64,000 nucleotides of DNA, taken from contig NZ_FQZE01000028.1 of NCBI RefSeq assembly GCF_900141875.1, positions 1-64,000 of the forward strand, read 5' to 3'. Under the pieces are notes generated by a model. That model ran no database searches and was not told the DNA's origin. It was given only the letters and a program-made list of their open reading frames with translations. This document shows positions 12,517 to 38,189 of the stretch, piece after piece; position 1 is the stretch's first letter, and the number at the start of each line of letters is the position of its first letter. This stretch comes from Tangfeifania diversioriginum (GTDB taxonomy: Bacteria; Bacteroidota; Bacteroidia; Bacteroidales; Prolixibacteraceae). The position numbers and the translations under genes were made by a program.

Positions 12517-13518
12517 TTATTCCTCATAAACCGGTCGCACACTGCCATACCTTTCCACAATCTCATCCAAAATTCCGGTGACTTCGGTATTGGTTTCAGC
12601 ACGCAGAAGTTTGATTTTCAGTTCGCGAAAGTTGGGCAATCCCGGAAAATATTTGGCAAAATGACGACGCATCATCAGAATAGCCGATCGCTCGTTGTCT
12701 TTCCATTCGAGGTTGAGCTGCATTTGTTCCTTTACATTTTCCACCACTTCGGCAACAGTTGGCGAGGGAAGTGTTTCGCCGGTTTGCAGGTAGTGTTTCA
12801 CTTCCCGGAAAATCCAGGGGCGGCCAATTGCCGGGCGGCCAATCATCAGCGCATCCACACCGGTTTGCTCCAACAGATTTTTGGCCTTTTCGCCACCGGT
12901 AATATCGCCATTCCCAATGATTGGGATTTGAATTTGCGGGTGGTTTTTCACTTCGCCAATCAGCGTCCAGTCGGCCACGCCGGTGTACAATTGCTCGCGG
13001 GTACGTCCGTGAATGGCCAGTGCGGCAATGCCGGCATCCTGAAGGCGCAGTGCAGCTTCCACAATAGGTTTGTCGTTTTTGTCCCAGCCCAACCGGGTTT
13101 TGGCGGTTACCGGAACTTTCACCGCCTTAACAATTTCAGCAGCCATTTGCTGCATCTTAGGCAGGTCGCGCAGCATGGCCGCCCCGGCACCGTGACGAAT
13201 TATTTTTTTCATGGGGCAACCGAAGTTGATGTCTATAAAATCGGGCTGCAGCTCTTCGGCAACCTGTGCCGCACGTACCATAGAATCAATGTTGTGCCCG
13301 TAAATCTGAATGGCTACCGGGCGGTCGAAATCGAACAAAACCATTTTTTGTTTCGACTTTTTCACGTCGCGAACCAGCGCCTCTGACGACACAAACTCGG
13401 TGTACATCACATCGGCGCCGTATTTTTTACACATCCAGCGGAAGGACTTGTAAGTCACGTCTTCCATGGGTGCCAAAAACAGTGGGGTTCCTTCCAGTAT
13501 AAGCTTTCCGATTTTCAT
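12517..13518 (-). CDS. dusB: tRNA-dihydrouridine synthase B
   Basis: FMN- and NAD(P)H-dependent enzyme that reduces uridines in the tRNA D-loop. Its 333 aa is normal for DusB. Motifs: APMEDVT at the N-terminus (FMN binding), DINFGCPMKKI around residue 97 with the catalytic Cys, KTRLGWD, AIHGRTREQ, the FMN-phosphate region IIGNGDI, and MIGRPAIGRPWIF; the C-terminal helical tRNA-binding domain follows. ATG at 13518 is the natural start. Monocistronic on the minus strand, with a fragment of a second copy of its 3' end just downstream. Confidence 0.93.
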   Translation of the reverse strand: MKIGKLILEGTPLFLAPMEDVTYKSFRWMCKKYGADVMYTEFVSSEALVRDVKKSKQKMVLFDFDRPVAIQIYGHNIDSMVRAAQVAEELQPDFIDINFGCPMKKIIRHGAGAAMLRDLPKMQQMAAEIVKAVKVPVTAKTRLGWDKNDKPIVEAALRLQDAGIAALAIHGRTREQLYTGVADWTLIGEVKNHPQIQIPIIGNGDITGGEKAKNLLEQTGVDALMIGRPAIGRPWIFREVKHYLQTGETLPSPTVAEVVENVKEQMQLNLEWKDNERSAILMMRRHFAKYFPGLPNFRELKIKLLRAETNTEVTGILDEIVERYGSVRPVYEE

Positions 13519-32595: not shown

Positions 32596-33081
32596 TTAAT
32601 GATCGTGACTATGAAAATACAGGTTTTCAAAATTATGAACTTTTGCACGCAGCGTGTCAATTACATCTAAATCCGTAGATTGCTTGCTCTTCATGGCAAA
32701 TACCAGGATATGGTGAAGTGTTTCAAGCTGTTTCTGATACTTCTTGTAAGCTTCTTCATTATTTGCTTCAACAGGTTTAATCCGCTGGTGAAGGAAATAC
32801 TGGCTCACAATGTCCTGGATTTTTTTGGCGTGCTCTTCTTTATTCACCACCCAGCGAACCAGCTGGTTATAATCCGGGTTTTCCTGTTCCGACAGCTCGT
32901 TAATCATATTCATCGATTTTTCCACTGTCTCAATATGTTCGTAGATCAGAGCAACGCGCACGGAGTCGCCATAAATTCCACAAGGTATTTCGCAATGCGC
33001 TTTCGATTCAAATGCTGAAAAACTCAGCACACTTATAAATAGTGCCGTTGTTAGAAGTTTTGATATTTTTTTCATACTCAT
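32596..33081 (-). CDS. sodN: Exported nickel superoxide dismutase
   Basis: 161-aa Ni-SOD. A signal peptide (LLTTALFISVLSFSAFESKA) ends exactly before HCEIPCGIYGD, the nickel-hook motif HCxxPCGxYxD; cleavage after SKA would expose the His1, Cys2 and Cys6 that bind nickel. The rest is the four-helix bundle with conserved NKEEHAKKIQDIVSQYF. In Streptomyces a dedicated peptidase unmasks His1; here signal peptidase I could do both export and maturation, placing the enzyme in the periplasm (inference). No sodX-like peptidase is adjacent. ATG 33075 is an alternative start. Confidence 0.9.
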   Translation of the reverse strand: MSMKKISKLLTTALFISVLSFSAFESKAHCEIPCGIYGDSVRVALIYEHIETVEKSMNMINELSEQENPDYNQLVRWVVNKEEHAKKIQDIVSQYFLHQRIKPVEANNEEAYKKYQKQLETLHHILVFAMKSKQSTDLDVIDTLRAKVHNFENLYFHSHDH

Positions 33082-33496
33082 TTAAATTTATTGTTTCTGT
33101 GTACATAACAATGAACCCCGCATTTGGTTTGGAAATATTTTAGGTGGTAAAAACCGGCCTGCCAGATACACCAACTATTGAAAATTGTATTTACATTTTA
33201 ACACAATCCCAGATTGCCCTTAAAACACTAATAATCAATCCGTTTACTCACATCAACTTTCATAAAAAATTTTCAGTGTTGAATTTTATTACAGTGCTTA
33301 ATTTTTATACACTGCAATCAATGACCTGAATACAAACACATTAACCATATTTCCTGAAGCGGGTGTATATATTTTCAACAATAATTTATGTTTAACCAAA
33401 AGGCTAAAACCACACAAGACGCTCATTATAAATATCTTACAACAATTGGCACTTTGTTTGAATTACTCCAAACAAAAAAAACGAAATTGAAAACAA
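33082..33496. other. Intergenic region between sodN and the NrfD-GcvH operon
   Basis: A 415-bp A+T-rich spacer between divergent genes. It must hold both promoters, but I find only partial -7 matches (for example TATATTTT at 33368-33375) and no convincing -33 partner. A 61-codon frame at 33144-33329 has no family resemblance and no gene-like start region. No RNA or terminator seen. Confidence 0.5.
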
Positions 33497-35215
33497 ATGA
33501 AATTTTTAAAAACTAATATCAGCATCATGAAAAATTTATTATCCACTCTGTCAGCGTTATCGTTTTTACTTTTCTTCACTGTTGCATCAGGCAGCATAGC
33601 AAACGACAACAACCCCGGCGAACAACAAGCTTCTGCCAAAAAGCAAAACCTTGAAATTGTATGCTCTCCCGAATTAATGTCAGTTACATCAAACTGGGTG
33701 CACAACTTCAGATCATCGCACCCCGATGTGGAAATTGTGGTTAATGAAAGCACAGATGAGATGGCGGTTGAAAATGGCAAACTCTATTTTTTAACCGGAG
33801 ACCAAAAGGAAAAGATTCAAAACAACTCGTTATGGGAAATAACCATTGGCCACGATGTAATTGTACCCATTATCAATTCAAACAATCCATTAAAGGATAA
33901 ACTTTTTGAAAAAGGAATTACACCAGCTTGTTTTTCAAATATTGTTTCTGAAAACGGGAATTGGTCAGAAATAATTGGAGAGGGTGACAATTCAGCCTTC
34001 CGGTGTTATCTGCTTGACCATCCGCAGGTAATTTCAAAAGTTTCTGCGTGTGCCAAAATCAGCCCTTCCAATATCAGCGCACAAAAAGTAACTACTGTTG
34101 AAAACCTGATTTCGGCCATTCAGAATGATGAATCGGCTGTTGGTTTCTGCCGGTTGATTGATGTTATAGATGCTGATAAAAATTCATTTGCATCAAACAT
34201 CAGCATTCTTCCGTTTGATAAAAACCAGAACGGCAGAATAGATGGCTTTGAAAAAATTTACAGCAGCCCCAAAGATTTGAGCAGAGGCGTTTGGATTGGC
34301 AAATATCCCAAAGAGCTTAGTGGTGAAATTTATGCTGCAGCAGCTTTTAAACCAACCGAAGGTGCAGCCCATGATTTTTTGGAGTGGGCAATTACCGACG
34401 GGCAGGAAGCTTTGGCAGAATCAGGATTCAGCAATCTGTCAAGTGTTGAAAAAACGGCAGGGTTGCTTGCCATGCGCAGTTCCGTTTCACAATCAGGCGG
34501 TGCAGAAAATGCTTCAGGAATATCGTCAGGCTGGAGATATATTTTAGGGATGTTGGCAGTAATTTTACTAATTGTGGCACTTGTCCGTACCAATGTAAAA
34601 AACACAAAAACCCCCGGCGAAACAAGGGAAGCACCACAGGCTGCATTAAACGAAAACTCAATTCTGGTTCCGGGTGGTTTGTTTTACGACAAAACCCACA
34701 CCTGGGCATTTATGGAAGAAAACGGGCAGGTTAAAATTGGCATCAACGATTTTCTGCAACATGTAACCGGTAAAGTAACCCAGCTAAAAATGAAGGCTGC
34801 CGGCCAAAAAATTCGCAAAGGCGAAAAAATTCTCACGCTTATGCACAAGGGAAAACAGCTTTCAATTTATTCCCCTGTAACCGGAGTAATAAAACAGCAG
34901 AATGAAGAGTTACTCACCAATCCTTCACAGCTTAATTCAGCTCCCTATACCAATGGATGGGTTTATCAAATTGAACCCGCAAACTGGGTCAGGGAAATCA
35001 GTTTCATGTTCATGGCCGATAGATTCAGAGACTGGATGAAAGATGAATTTACCCGGCTCAAAGATTTTATGGCCATTGTGGTTAATGCCAGCCAGTTGAA
35101 GCTGGCCCAGCCTGTTTTGCAGGATGGAGGAGAACTTACCGACAATGTACTGGCCAACCTTGATCCGGAAGTTTGGGAAGAATTTCAGAATCAGTTTATC
35201 GACACCTCAAAATAA
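33497..35215 (+). CDS. PstS-like periplasmic domain tethered to a GcvH-like domain
   Basis: 572-aa two-part membrane protein. After a signal peptide (about 11-33), residues 50-310 resemble PstS-type solute-binding proteins (LEIVCSPELMSVTSNWVHNF, HDVIVPIINSNNPL, ESAVGFCRLIDV), with an EF-hand-like loop DKNQNGRIDGFE at 241-252. One membrane helix (about 346-364) ends in RTNVKNTK, putting the C-terminus in the cytoplasm. Residues 395-492 follow GcvH without gaps (FYDKTHTWAF, YSPVTGVI, NSAPYTNGWVYQI), but the lipoyl Lys position is Gly452 between two Lys. A C-terminal extension with LKDFMAI and LQDGGEL is shared with the last gene of the operon. ATG 33527 is an equally good start. Ligand and role unknown. 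Confidence 0.75.
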   Translation: MKFLKTNISIMKNLLSTLSALSFLLFFTVASGSIANDNNPGEQQASAKKQNLEIVCSPELMSVTSNWVHNFRSSHPDVEIVVNESTDEMAVENGKLYFLTGDQKEKIQNNSLWEITIGHDVIVPIINSNNPLKDKLFEKGITPACFSNIVSENGNWSEIIGEGDNSAFRCYLLDHPQVISKVSACAKISPSNISAQKVTTVENLISAIQNDESAVGFCRLIDVIDADKNSFASNISILPFDKNQNGRIDGFEKIYSSPKDLSRGVWIGKYPKELSGEIYAAAAFKPTEGAAHDFLEWAITDGQEALAESGFSNLSSVEKTAGLLAMRSSVSQSGGAENASGISSGWRYILGMLAVILLIVALVRTNVKNTKTPGETREAPQAALNENSILVPGGLFYDKTHTWAFMEENGQVKIGINDFLQHVTGKVTQLKMKAAGQKIRKGEKILTLMHKGKQLSIYSPVTGVIKQQNEELLTNPSQLNSAPYTNGWVYQIEPANWVREISFMFMADRFRDWMKDEFTRLKDFMAIVVNASQLKLAQPVLQDGGELTDNVLANLDPEVWEEFQNQFIDTSK

Positions 35216-35260
35216 AAACGAAATCTAAACCTTAATTACTACTAAATAAAAAATAAAATT

Positions 35261-36124
35261 ATGAGTATTAACCGACGAGATTTTTTTAAAGCCCTCGGGG
35301 CAACCGGCATGACCATAATCGGACTCAATGCCGCCGGTTCTCCCGGATCCAATTCAGACGATGATACCGAATTTTACGGAATTTTGTACGATTCGAGTAT
35401 CTGCATCGGTTGCAGGGCCTGCGAAAAAGCCTGTGCCGAAACACACGGGCTTCCTGAACCGGAAGATGAAATGGAAGCCGGCGTTCAGCGAAAAACAAGT
35501 GTAACCCAGCGTTGTACCGTTAATGCCTTCGACACAGAAGAAGGCGAAGTGTATGTAAGAAACCAGTGTATGCACTGCAACGAACCAGCGTGTGCAACCG
35601 CCTGTTTAACGCAGGCCATGTACAAAACTAAAGAAGGCCCCGTTATATGGCGCGAAGAAAAATGCATGGGTTGCCGCTACTGCATGGTTTCCTGCCCTTT
35701 TGATGTTCCGAAATTTGAGTACGAAAGTGCCAATCCTATAATTCAGAAGTGTGACATGTGTTACGACCGTATTAAAGAAGGCGAACTGCCGGTGTGCGTT
35801 GAAACATGCGGCGATGCGCTCTATTTTGGAACACGGCGCGAACTCATTGCCGAAGCACGCCGGCGTATTGCTGAATGGCCCGAAATGTATATCGATTCTA
35901 TTTATGGCGAGCATACAGTTGGAGGAACCGGTTATTTGTACCTGTCGCCTGTGCCACACAATGAACTGGGGTTCGATATCAAACTTCAAAAAGAGTCCTA
36001 CCCTTCGTTAACCAAAAGTTTTCTTTACAGTGTTCCCGCTGTAGACGTCCTGGTTCCCTCATTGCTACTCGGACTTCATGCAGCTACTAAAAACAAACAA
36101 AACAAAACCGAAAATCATGACTAG
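35261..36124 (+). CDS. HybA-like periplasmic iron-sulfur protein
   Basis: 287-aa ferredoxin-type protein with a Tat-like signal (NRRDFFKALG). Sixteen cysteines form four [4Fe-4S] motifs: CIGCRACEKAC, CMHCNEPACATAC, CMGCRYCMVSC and the split pair CDMC...CVETC. A C-terminal hydrophobic segment (VPAVDVLVPSLLLGLHAA) can anchor it in the membrane, as in HybA of hydrogenase-2. It should relay electrons between a periplasmic partner and the quinone pool through the adjacent NrfD protein. The usual catalytic partner (hydrogenase or molybdopterin subunit) is absent from the operon. Lies 45 nt after the PstS-GcvH gene and overlaps the next gene by 8 bp. Confidence 0.88.
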   Translation: MSINRRDFFKALGATGMTIIGLNAAGSPGSNSDDDTEFYGILYDSSICIGCRACEKACAETHGLPEPEDEMEAGVQRKTSVTQRCTVNAFDTEEGEVYVRNQCMHCNEPACATACLTQAMYKTKEGPVIWREEKCMGCRYCMVSCPFDVPKFEYESANPIIQKCDMCYDRIKEGELPVCVETCGDALYFGTRRELIAEARRRIAEWPEMYIDSIYGEHTVGGTGYLYLSPVPHNELGFDIKLQKESYPSLTKSFLYSVPAVDVLVPSLLLGLHAATKNKQNKTENHD

Positions 36125-37349
36125 TCCAGCATATCCAATTACAGAAAAGAAGCAAAATCAAACCATCTGGCGGTTTTTGCTGAAAGAATTAAAGCCCAGT
36201 GGCAAATGGCTCACTCCTTTTAACATTATTTCCATTCCGATTATCCTTGTGGGGCTTGCCCTTATCGTTATTCGTTTTACCCACGGTCTTGGTGCCGTAT
36301 CAAATGTTACGCAGGAAGTTCCGTGGGGATTATGGAAAGGATTTAATGTGGTAACCGGCGTAGCTTTTGCCGGCGGTGCTTATGTGCTGACTTTCATTGT
36401 TTATATTCTGAAGGTCGATAAATTCCATTCCATCGTCCGGGTTACCGTTTTGAATGGATTCCTGGCTTATCTTTTTTATACCGGCGCACTGGTTCTCGAT
36501 TTGGGGAAACCATGGAATATTTTCAATCCGGTAATTGGCAATAACTACGGTGTAAGCTCCGTGCTTTTCCTGGTAGCCTGGCATTTCATCCTCTACATTC
36601 TGGGCCTTCTCATTGAATTTTCGCCGGCAGTGGCCGAATGGCTGGGTGCCAAACGTGCCCATAAAATTTTGTCGGGAATGACCATTGGAGCCGTTATTTT
36701 TGGTATCACCCTTTCTGTTTTGCACCAGTCGGGATTGGGGGCTTTGTTCCTCATGGCAAAAGAAAAGATACACCCGCTGTGGTACTCTGAATTTATTCCC
36801 ATTCTGTTTCTCGTATCCAGCGTTTTTGCCGGCCTTTCCATGATTATTTTTGAAGGCTCCATCAGCCAGCAGGTATTTTCAGATCAAATTGATGAAAAAA
36901 GCCGGACCAGGAGAAAAGAGATGCTACAAATCCTGTCGCGTATTTGTGGTTGCAGCATGTTTATTTACCTGTTTTTGCAGCTGCTGGTGTTTATTCACGG
37001 ACAGCGCGGAAGTTACATCAACTCATCAATGGGCTACTGGTTTTTGGTTGAAATGGTTGGCTTTGTGCTCGTTCCCATGGTTTTGTTTATACTCAGCTAC
37101 CGCAAGCCCAACATTCTACTCATAAGAATTGCAGCTATTATGACCATCATCGGTATTATCCTAAACCGGCTCAATGTTTCCATCATTGCTTTCCGGTGGG
37201 ATGCAGCTGTGCGTTACGTTCCCTCGTGGATGGAAATTGTTATCAGCATAACCATCATTCTCATCCAAATCTGGATTTTCAGGTGGATTATCAACCGGAT
37301 GCCGGTTTTCAAAGGCTCACCTTCATGGGCAAAACATAAAAACGATTAA
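36117..37349 (+). CDS. NrfD/HybB family quinone-site membrane protein
   Basis: 410-aa polytopic membrane protein with about ten helices, of the NrfD/PsrC/HybB family that exchanges electrons between a periplasmic iron-sulfur protein and quinone. Family-like features are the first helix region LTPFNIISIPIILVGL, the loop QEVPWGLWKGFNVVTGVAFAGGAY, VLDLGKPWNIFNP, and the final helices with RLNVSIIAFRWDAAVRYVPSWMEI. I start it at ATG 36117, overlapping the HybA-like stop by 8 bp; ATG 36078 would overlap it by 47 bp and adds no conserved sequence. It contains no haem-type motif that I recognise. Confidence 0.9.
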   Translation: MTSPAYPITEKKQNQTIWRFLLKELKPSGKWLTPFNIISIPIILVGLALIVIRFTHGLGAVSNVTQEVPWGLWKGFNVVTGVAFAGGAYVLTFIVYILKVDKFHSIVRVTVLNGFLAYLFYTGALVLDLGKPWNIFNPVIGNNYGVSSVLFLVAWHFILYILGLLIEFSPAVAEWLGAKRAHKILSGMTIGAVIFGITLSVLHQSGLGALFLMAKEKIHPLWYSEFIPILFLVSSVFAGLSMIIFEGSISQQVFSDQIDEKSRTRRKEMLQILSRICGCSMFIYLFLQLLVFIHGQRGSYINSSMGYWFLVEMVGFVLVPMVLFILSYRKPNILLIRIAAIMTIIGIILNRLNVSIIAFRWDAAVRYVPSWMEIVISITIILIQIWIFRWIINRMPVFKGSPSWAKHKND

Positions 37350-37393
37350 TCATGTTGCCGCAAGATTCTGCCGGTAACTTAAAACTATAAATT

Positions 37394-38104
37394 ATGGATG
37401 GATTTAGCTACACAAATATTTTTGAAACAAAAGGAATCGAATACATCACCATCATTTTCTTTTTCCTTATCCTTATTCCTTTTTGGTTGTTCATCAACAG
37501 AAAAGTAAAGCAACCTGCATTTATCGAAAAAGCAAAGGGTTTTATTACTGCCAGTTCTCTTCGGATACCTCAGGGTGTATTTTTCAGTAAGTATCATACC
37601 TGGGCACATCTTGAAAAAAACGGCGAAGCACGTGTTGGCCTCGACGATTTACTGATTCACATCACGGGCGATGTAAAGATCACACAGGTAAAGCAACCTG
37701 GCGAAAAAATCAAAAAAGGTGAACTGCTTGCCCGGATTGGTTACAACGGAAACACCCTGAAAATTCTTTCTCCGGTTTCAGGAATCGTTCAGGAAACCAA
37801 TGCGGCCCTTTCTGAAAATCCGGGCGTAATAAAAGACGACCCGTACAATTTGGGATGGATTTACTCCTTGCAGCCAACCAACTGGAAAGAAGATACCAAT
37901 TCGTGTTACCTGGCTGAAGATGCCTCCAACTGGGCTGTTCGGGAGCTGGAACGTTTCAAGGATTTCCTGGCGGTTTCAACTGCAAAATTAACCCCCGAAC
38001 CCATGGGCGTTATGCTGCAGGATGGTGGAGAAATAGTTGAAAAACCGCTGGAAAAATTTCCGAAAGAGATTTGGGACGATTTTCAGAAGAATTTTCTTTC
38101 CTGA
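37394..38104 (+). CDS. Membrane-anchored GcvH-like protein without a lipoyl lysine
   Basis: 236-aa protein: one N-terminal membrane helix (about 16-34) followed by NRKVKQ, so the body is cytoplasmic by the positive-inside rule. Residues 62-155 follow GcvH (FFSKYHTWAHLE, VGLDDLLIHITGDV, LSPVSGIVQETN, DDPYNLGWIYSL). Aligned without gaps to E. coli GcvH, the lipoylated Lys64 falls on Gly119 (YNGN), so lipoylation at the normal site is not possible. The C-terminal 80 residues (RFKDFLAV, MLQDGGEI, PKEIWDDFQ) match those of the first gene of the operon, which points to a shared binding partner. This is not a glycine-cleavage component: no gcvP, gcvT or lipoate gene is nearby. A strong terminator follows. 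Confidence 0.8.
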   Translation: MDGFSYTNIFETKGIEYITIIFFFLILIPFWLFINRKVKQPAFIEKAKGFITASSLRIPQGVFFSKYHTWAHLEKNGEARVGLDDLLIHITGDVKITQVKQPGEKIKKGELLARIGYNGNTLKILSPVSGIVQETNAALSENPGVIKDDPYNLGWIYSLQPTNWKEDTNSCYLAEDASNWAVRELERFKDFLAVSTAKLTPEPMGVMLQDGGEIVEKPLEKFPKEIWDDFQKNFLS

Positions 38105-38154
38105 TTTTTCAGAGGAAAAATTTTAAGTCCTTAACGGACTTATTTTAAAATTTG

Positions 38155-38189
38155 GAAGCGATGTGCATAATGCATCGCTTCTTTTTTTC
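38155..38189 (+). terminator. Intrinsic terminator of the NrfD-GcvH operon
   Basis: GAAGCGATG (38155-38163) pairs perfectly with CATCGCTTC (38173-38181) and is followed by seven T. A second small hairpin, AAGTCC-TTAAC-GGACTT, precedes it at 38125-38141. Confidence 0.8.

Follow-up and report, generated by a model that had tools for sequence, protein, structure and literature searches.

The question raised by the locus described here is what a respiratory-type membrane redox pair may do when its genes lie between those of two proteins resembling the H protein of the glycine cleavage system (GcvH). The locus was recognized in Tangfeifania diversioriginum, within a window of 64,000 nucleotides (the whole stretch of DNA analysed; contig NZ_FQZE01000028.1). 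Analysis of the open reading frames (ORFs), with domain assignment by Pfam and NCBIfam, confirmed the four-gene operon proposed in a preliminary description (positions 33527–38104). All four ORFs are present and co-oriented, and they encode PG (PBP_like_2 and GCV_H domains), an HmcB-like FeS protein (4Fe-4S dicluster), an HmcC-like protein (NrfD) and Gm (a transmembrane segment, TM, followed by GCV_H). The strong terminator said to close the operon was also identified. The features are as follows.

33446–33462, + strand: sigma-54-type promoter-like site TTGGCAC-N5-TTGAA, 65–81 bp upstream of the likely PG start
33527–35215, + strand: PG, with signal peptide, PBP_like_2 domain, TM, GcvH-like domain and C-terminal DGGE/WEDFQ tail
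33629–34396, + strand: periplasmic PstS-fold domain of PG, with degenerate phosphate loops
34217–34252, + strand: EF-hand-like loop DKNQNGRIDGFE within the PBP domain; D-x-N-x-N and the final E invariant
34682–35026, + strand: cytoplasmic GcvH-like domain of PG, with Gly at the lipoyl-Lys column
35261–36124, + strand: HmcB/HybA-like Tat protein with 16 Cys for four [4Fe-4S] clusters and a hydrophobic C-tail (Pfam/NCBIfam)
36117–37349, + strand: HmcC/HybB-like membrane protein of the NrfD family (Pfam/NCBIfam); the ORF opens at 36078
37394–38104, + strand: Gm, with N-terminal TM, GcvH-like domain lacking the lipoyl Lys and C-terminal tail
38154–38182, + strand: intrinsic terminator, a 12-pair stem with a T-run

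The PG reading frame opens at 33497 (572 aa), but an internal Met conserved in the alignment indicates that translation most likely starts at 33527 (562 aa). The start of the NrfD-family protein is probably at 36117, overlapping the stop of the FeS gene. The HmcB-like protein (287 aa) contains a Tat motif and 16 cysteines distributed across four cluster motifs, while Gm is 236 aa long.

In comparisons with NCBIfam, the FeS protein was nearest to HmcB (301 bits) and then to HybA (208 bits), and the membrane protein to HmcC (379 bits) and then to HybB (245 bits). Both remained below the respective equivalog cut-offs (420 bits for HmcB, 550 bits for HmcC), and the membrane protein passed the threshold of the NrfD family PF03916 (59.1 vs a gathering score of 25.8 bits). 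Neither the operon nor its conserved neighbours include an ORF for a hydrogenase subunit, and the HmcA multiheme cytochrome is missing from the window operon, a 13-heme HmcA-like protein being found only in a sister module (see below). The earlier statement that no standard catalytic subunit is encoded with the NrfD-HybA pair holds for the operon and its conserved neighbourhood.

Gene order and co-occurrence

The host genome carries a second PG paralogue (PG2) on another contig (C52), in line with the genes of a sensor kinase (HK, 556 aa), an NtrC-type regulator (RR, 448 aa) and an archaemetzincin (Amz, 183 aa). In other Bacteroidota the genes GcvH-like - HmcB - HmcC - GcvH-like - HK - RR - Amz are contiguous, and the complete order PG-HmcB-HmcC-Gm-HK-RR-Amz was found at 13 loci of the host family (L113–L120, L128–L132). 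Since HK-RR-Amz directly follow the four genes elsewhere, the window contains the leading part of a seven-gene operon that has been split, an arrangement common to this genome and Mariniphaga (L121/L122, L123/L124). The search for a recurring fifth gene, recommended in the preliminary description, thus yielded a kinase with two heme motifs, followed by the sigma-54 regulator and the archaemetzincin. The latter, usually the last gene of the module, has an intact HELGHTFGLTHC motif (L006 5085–5636).

Co-conservation of the genes across genomes, which had been anticipated, was evident from this shared order and from their joint distribution. Because most members share descent, the co-occurrence counts are not phylogenetically independent and Fisher p-values overstate independence: among 140 genomes of the host family, 69 had HmcC of this type and 70 had the kinase sensor, with both in 64, HmcC only in 5, the kinase only in 6 and neither in 65. 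For the five genomes with HmcC only, completeness does not exceed 80% in three, and the remaining two have HmcC close to the end of a contig. HmcC and the kinase are encoded on one contig in 56 of the 64 genomes, and the gap between them (0.9–1.4 kb in the 12 checked) corresponds to the Gm gene. The searches were confined to Bacteroidota, many of the genomes being MAGs; in a set of 297 the kinase was detected in 41, including all 25 with a strong GcvH-like match (E < 1e-18), and in 14 of the remaining 16 a GcvH-like match was located within about 3 kb of the kinase.

Two genomes (G335 and G405; loci L126 and L127) retain PG-HK-RR-Amz with no HmcC match. The HmcBC input is therefore dispensable for the kinase, which suggests that the kinase-PG pair can take another input.

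A Ni-SOD gene (window 32596–33081) is divergent from and adjoins PG, and a gene of the Fe/Mn-type (L006 11064–11645) is placed in the same way beside the PG2 operon. A link between superoxide dismutase and the module was rejected, as no SOD gene occurs at any other module locus read, and the two neighbours are probably a coincidence.

Heme motifs of the kinase and promoters of the module

The partner proteins form a two-component pair, composed of a HisKA/HATPase kinase and a receiver-AAA-HTH_8 regulator; RpoN and two cytochrome c assembly proteins are encoded in the host genome. In all 29 aligned module kinases the periplasmic domain contains invariant CXXCH and CX4CH motifs. The second of these is also a heme motif in c3-type cytochromes. 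The sensor profile matches the chemoreceptor sensor PDB 3b42 (GSU0935; E 2.2e-5), with CX4CH aligned to the heme motif of that sensor, and from these motifs the kinase is predicted to carry two periplasmic c-type hemes. The L006 and L057 kinases gave no match to Pfam DUF3365/Tll0287 at E 0.1. A 2026 preprint on single-heme Cache sensors (PMC12889525) reports NO binding for signalling-fused members, which makes NO sensing a live alternative or additional input of the kinase; the words diheme, NrfD, Hmc and glycine cleavage are absent from that text.

The sister module (L057, L060, L063, L069–L072, L074, L076, L077) has the order HmcB-HmcC-13-heme HmcA-like cytochrome-HK, after which come proteins with a receiver domain fused to a GcvH-like domain. 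These fusions are the strongest hint that the GcvH-like domain may be a signalling rather than a metabolic part. The sister-module kinase (L057 12164–14032) has a zinc-ribbon-like insertion in its ATPase region. At L056 the operon itself includes a tetraheme cytochrome gene (12832–13335), a candidate electron carrier, placed after the second GcvH-like gene and before the kinase. Large multiheme cytochrome clusters (16–19 CXXCH) with cytochrome b, and in some cases a beta-barrel-like gene, occur at L061, L063, L070, L071, L077 and L011; such clusters, which often neighbour module loci, bring extracellular electron transfer to mind.

Sites resembling TTGGYAY-N5-TTGRA are found upstream of 21 of 22 PG-type operons, mostly at -50 to -105, vs 16 of 858 other genes, and upstream of no PG-type operon when the spacing is altered by one base. 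In the first count, 5 of those 16 other genes were module kinase genes. Genome-wide, 12 sigma-54-type sites were found vs 9 for a reversed-pattern control, and the strict consensus gave two matches, below its control; with the site count so near the control, no wider regulon of the regulator is visible. An identical 17-mer (TTGGCATAAGTTTTGGA) shared by four genomes was considered as a regulon site and rejected, since in the three that were read it falls within a conserved gene that codes for protein. The simplest reading is that the module would be autoregulated by its own sigma-54 regulator.

GcvH-like domains and the proposed redox relay

The Gm model has the GcvH fold (pLDDT 82; TM-score 0.87 to 1onl, by target length). 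In 62 of 65 GcvH-like rows, a set that excludes two true GcvH controls, the lipoyl-lysine column is occupied by Gly, Asn or other residues, and one of the three Lys exceptions (L073_07) belongs to a different locus. In the alignment, the PGs have an invariant Lys one residue past the usual lipoyl position, which is missing from the window Gm as well; lipoyl modification of PG seems unlikely from these residues. Both GcvH-like domains of the window (77.7 and 72.1 bits) miss the GcvH subfamily/equivalog cut-off of 117 bits. The second GcvH-like protein of distant modules (L046 6549–7400, L057 4554–5273) has an N-terminal Cys motif, CIWM..GV..YKLCD..F.CE.CPFD, not found in the window Gm. Glycine cleavage genes, described earlier as missing, are indeed missing locally, but the host genome encodes a canonical GcvH with the lipoyl lysine on contig C76. 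Because the operon's GcvH-like domains lack this lysine, the presence or absence of such genes is beside the point. Plasmid searches retrieved ordinary GcvH and HybB-type proteins only.

With moderate confidence, we propose that the operon encodes half of a two-component system that senses redox state at the membrane, in which a quinone relay leads into the diheme kinase and the GcvH-like domains serve as adaptors. Electrons would move between the quinone pool and the periplasm by way of HmcC and HmcB, and the relay would run from the quinone pool through HmcC, HmcB and the diheme kinase to the regulator. The electron partner of HmcBC is likely to be the diheme periplasmic domain of the kinase, which would be reached directly in the window-type module and probably through the 13-heme HmcA-like cytochrome in the sister module. 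The non-lipoylated cytoplasmic domains of PG and Gm would be the adaptors that connect the membrane complex with the kinase or receiver, and the phosphorylated NtrC-type regulator would switch on sigma-54 promoters, the module's own first. In line with the earlier suggestion, the layout fits a coupling of quinone or periplasmic redox state to cytoplasmic signalling. Gene conservation, co-occurrence, the motifs, the Gm fold and the common promoter type are observations, whereas electron transfer to the kinase hemes, the adaptor role and autoregulation are inferred. The two genomes that retain PG-HK-RR-Amz without HmcBC (G335 and G405) speak against the relay.

The main rival, which we regard as rather unlikely, is that HmcBC with the GcvH-like proteins is an ordinary respiratory or detoxifying quinol:acceptor oxidoreductase with a soluble periplasmic cytochrome as partner, the kinase and regulator merely switching on its expression, like Rrf1/Rrf2 for hmc. 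The similarity of HmcB and HmcC to energy-conserving Hmc/Hyb proteins is consistent with it, as are the tetraheme cytochrome genes that some module loci (L056, L011) contain or adjoin, a promoter usable by the kinase's regulator and the regulators known beside an hmc operon (PMC10924467). However, the membrane-anchored GcvH-like domains and their receiver fusions, the almost obligatory association between this type of kinase and GcvH-like proteins, and the occurrence of PG-HK-RR-Amz without HmcBC would all be left unexplained.

A ligand-sensing three-component system, in which a solute of the periplasm or Ca2+ is the ligand of the PBP domain and the signal passes via the TM and the GcvH-like domain to the kinase, HmcBC being accessory or a target, appears improbable. 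The domain, earlier taken for a PstS-like sensor, does have a PstS-like fold: the window PG matches PBP_like_2 with 28.7 vs 27 bits, and 9 of 10 relatives match as well. It also keeps an EF-hand-like loop (DxNxNGxxD..E, with D, N, N and E invariant), and PG remains with the kinase where HmcBC has been lost (L126, L127), both of which this alternative would accommodate. Against it, the aligned PBP profile shows no equivalent of GSTS, GSSAG and GSGT in 4q8r (alignment judged by eye), and in distant module members TM-GcvH occurs without a PBP domain. Because it is absent from those members and its phosphate loops are lost, the PBP domain is a lineage addition to PG and not the core sensor. An AlphaFold model of PG (five sequences) was too poor for use (pLDDT 47). 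Finally, that the GcvH-like proteins are lipoylated and carry reducing equivalents or sulfur, like LbpA in the sHdr system, is very improbable because the lipoyl lysine is missing, in spite of the GcvH fold and the shifted Lys of the PGs.

Comparison with known systems

In the literature searched, which leaves most subscription journals outside, no paper on this combination was found, in agreement with the earlier remark that no function is known to have been described for it. Tail-anchored FeS proteins paired with HybB/NrfD proteins occur alongside hydrogenases, octaheme cytochromes, the Hmc complex and a periplasmic FeFe hydrogenase (PMC10924467); in none of the cases described there do GcvH-like proteins or heme kinases belong to the conserved parts. 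Glycine, histidine kinases and two-component systems are all unmentioned in a review of NrfD proteins (PMC8076601).

The Hmc complex of Desulfovibrio vulgaris (HmcABCDEF, with rrf1/rrf2) resembles the module in having a tail-anchored HmcB-like FeS protein beside an HmcC-like NrfD protein, with regulators nearby; in contrast, the window operon lacks HmcA, D, E and F, and has GcvH-like proteins and the module diheme kinase instead. HybA/HybB of E. coli hydrogenase 2 likewise combine a Tat FeS protein bearing a C-tail with an NrfD-family membrane protein, but hydrogenase subunits are absent from the operon and its conserved neighbourhood. GcvH and the lipoate-binding proteins (LbpA, PMC6067878) share the fold of the module domains, which differ in lacking the lipoyl lysine, in being membrane-anchored or receiver-fused and in having the extra C-terminal DGGE/WEDFQ tail. 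PG resembles PstS in its PBP_like_2 family match and partial sequence similarity, and departs from it in its degenerate phosphate loops, its EF-hand-like loop and its fusion to a TM and a GcvH-like domain. The heme Cache sensors (GSU0582, GSU0935, DUF3365/Tll0287, 'sCache_heme', PMC12889525) also have a c-type heme motif in the periplasmic sensor domain of a signalling protein. Unlike them, the module kinase has a second motif, CXXCH, upstream of the CX4CH that stands at the heme position of GSU0935, and is genetically linked to a membrane redox pair.

More tentatively, the module might represent a new sensory class, in which a respiratory-type quinone-FeS pair feeds the c-type hemes of a kinase and lipoate-free GcvH-fold domains, also receiver-fused, form a new family of signalling adaptors. 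The proposed relay, if true, would account for HmcBC pairs without a catalytic subunit and give a role to proteins that resemble 'glycine cleavage system protein H' yet are unable to carry lipoate at the usual place, and that are a likely source of misannotation. The kinases by which bacteria are known to monitor the quinone pool either bind quinones or have redox-active thiols. Coupling a heme kinase to an electron-transfer pair of its own would read the respiratory state in a different manner.
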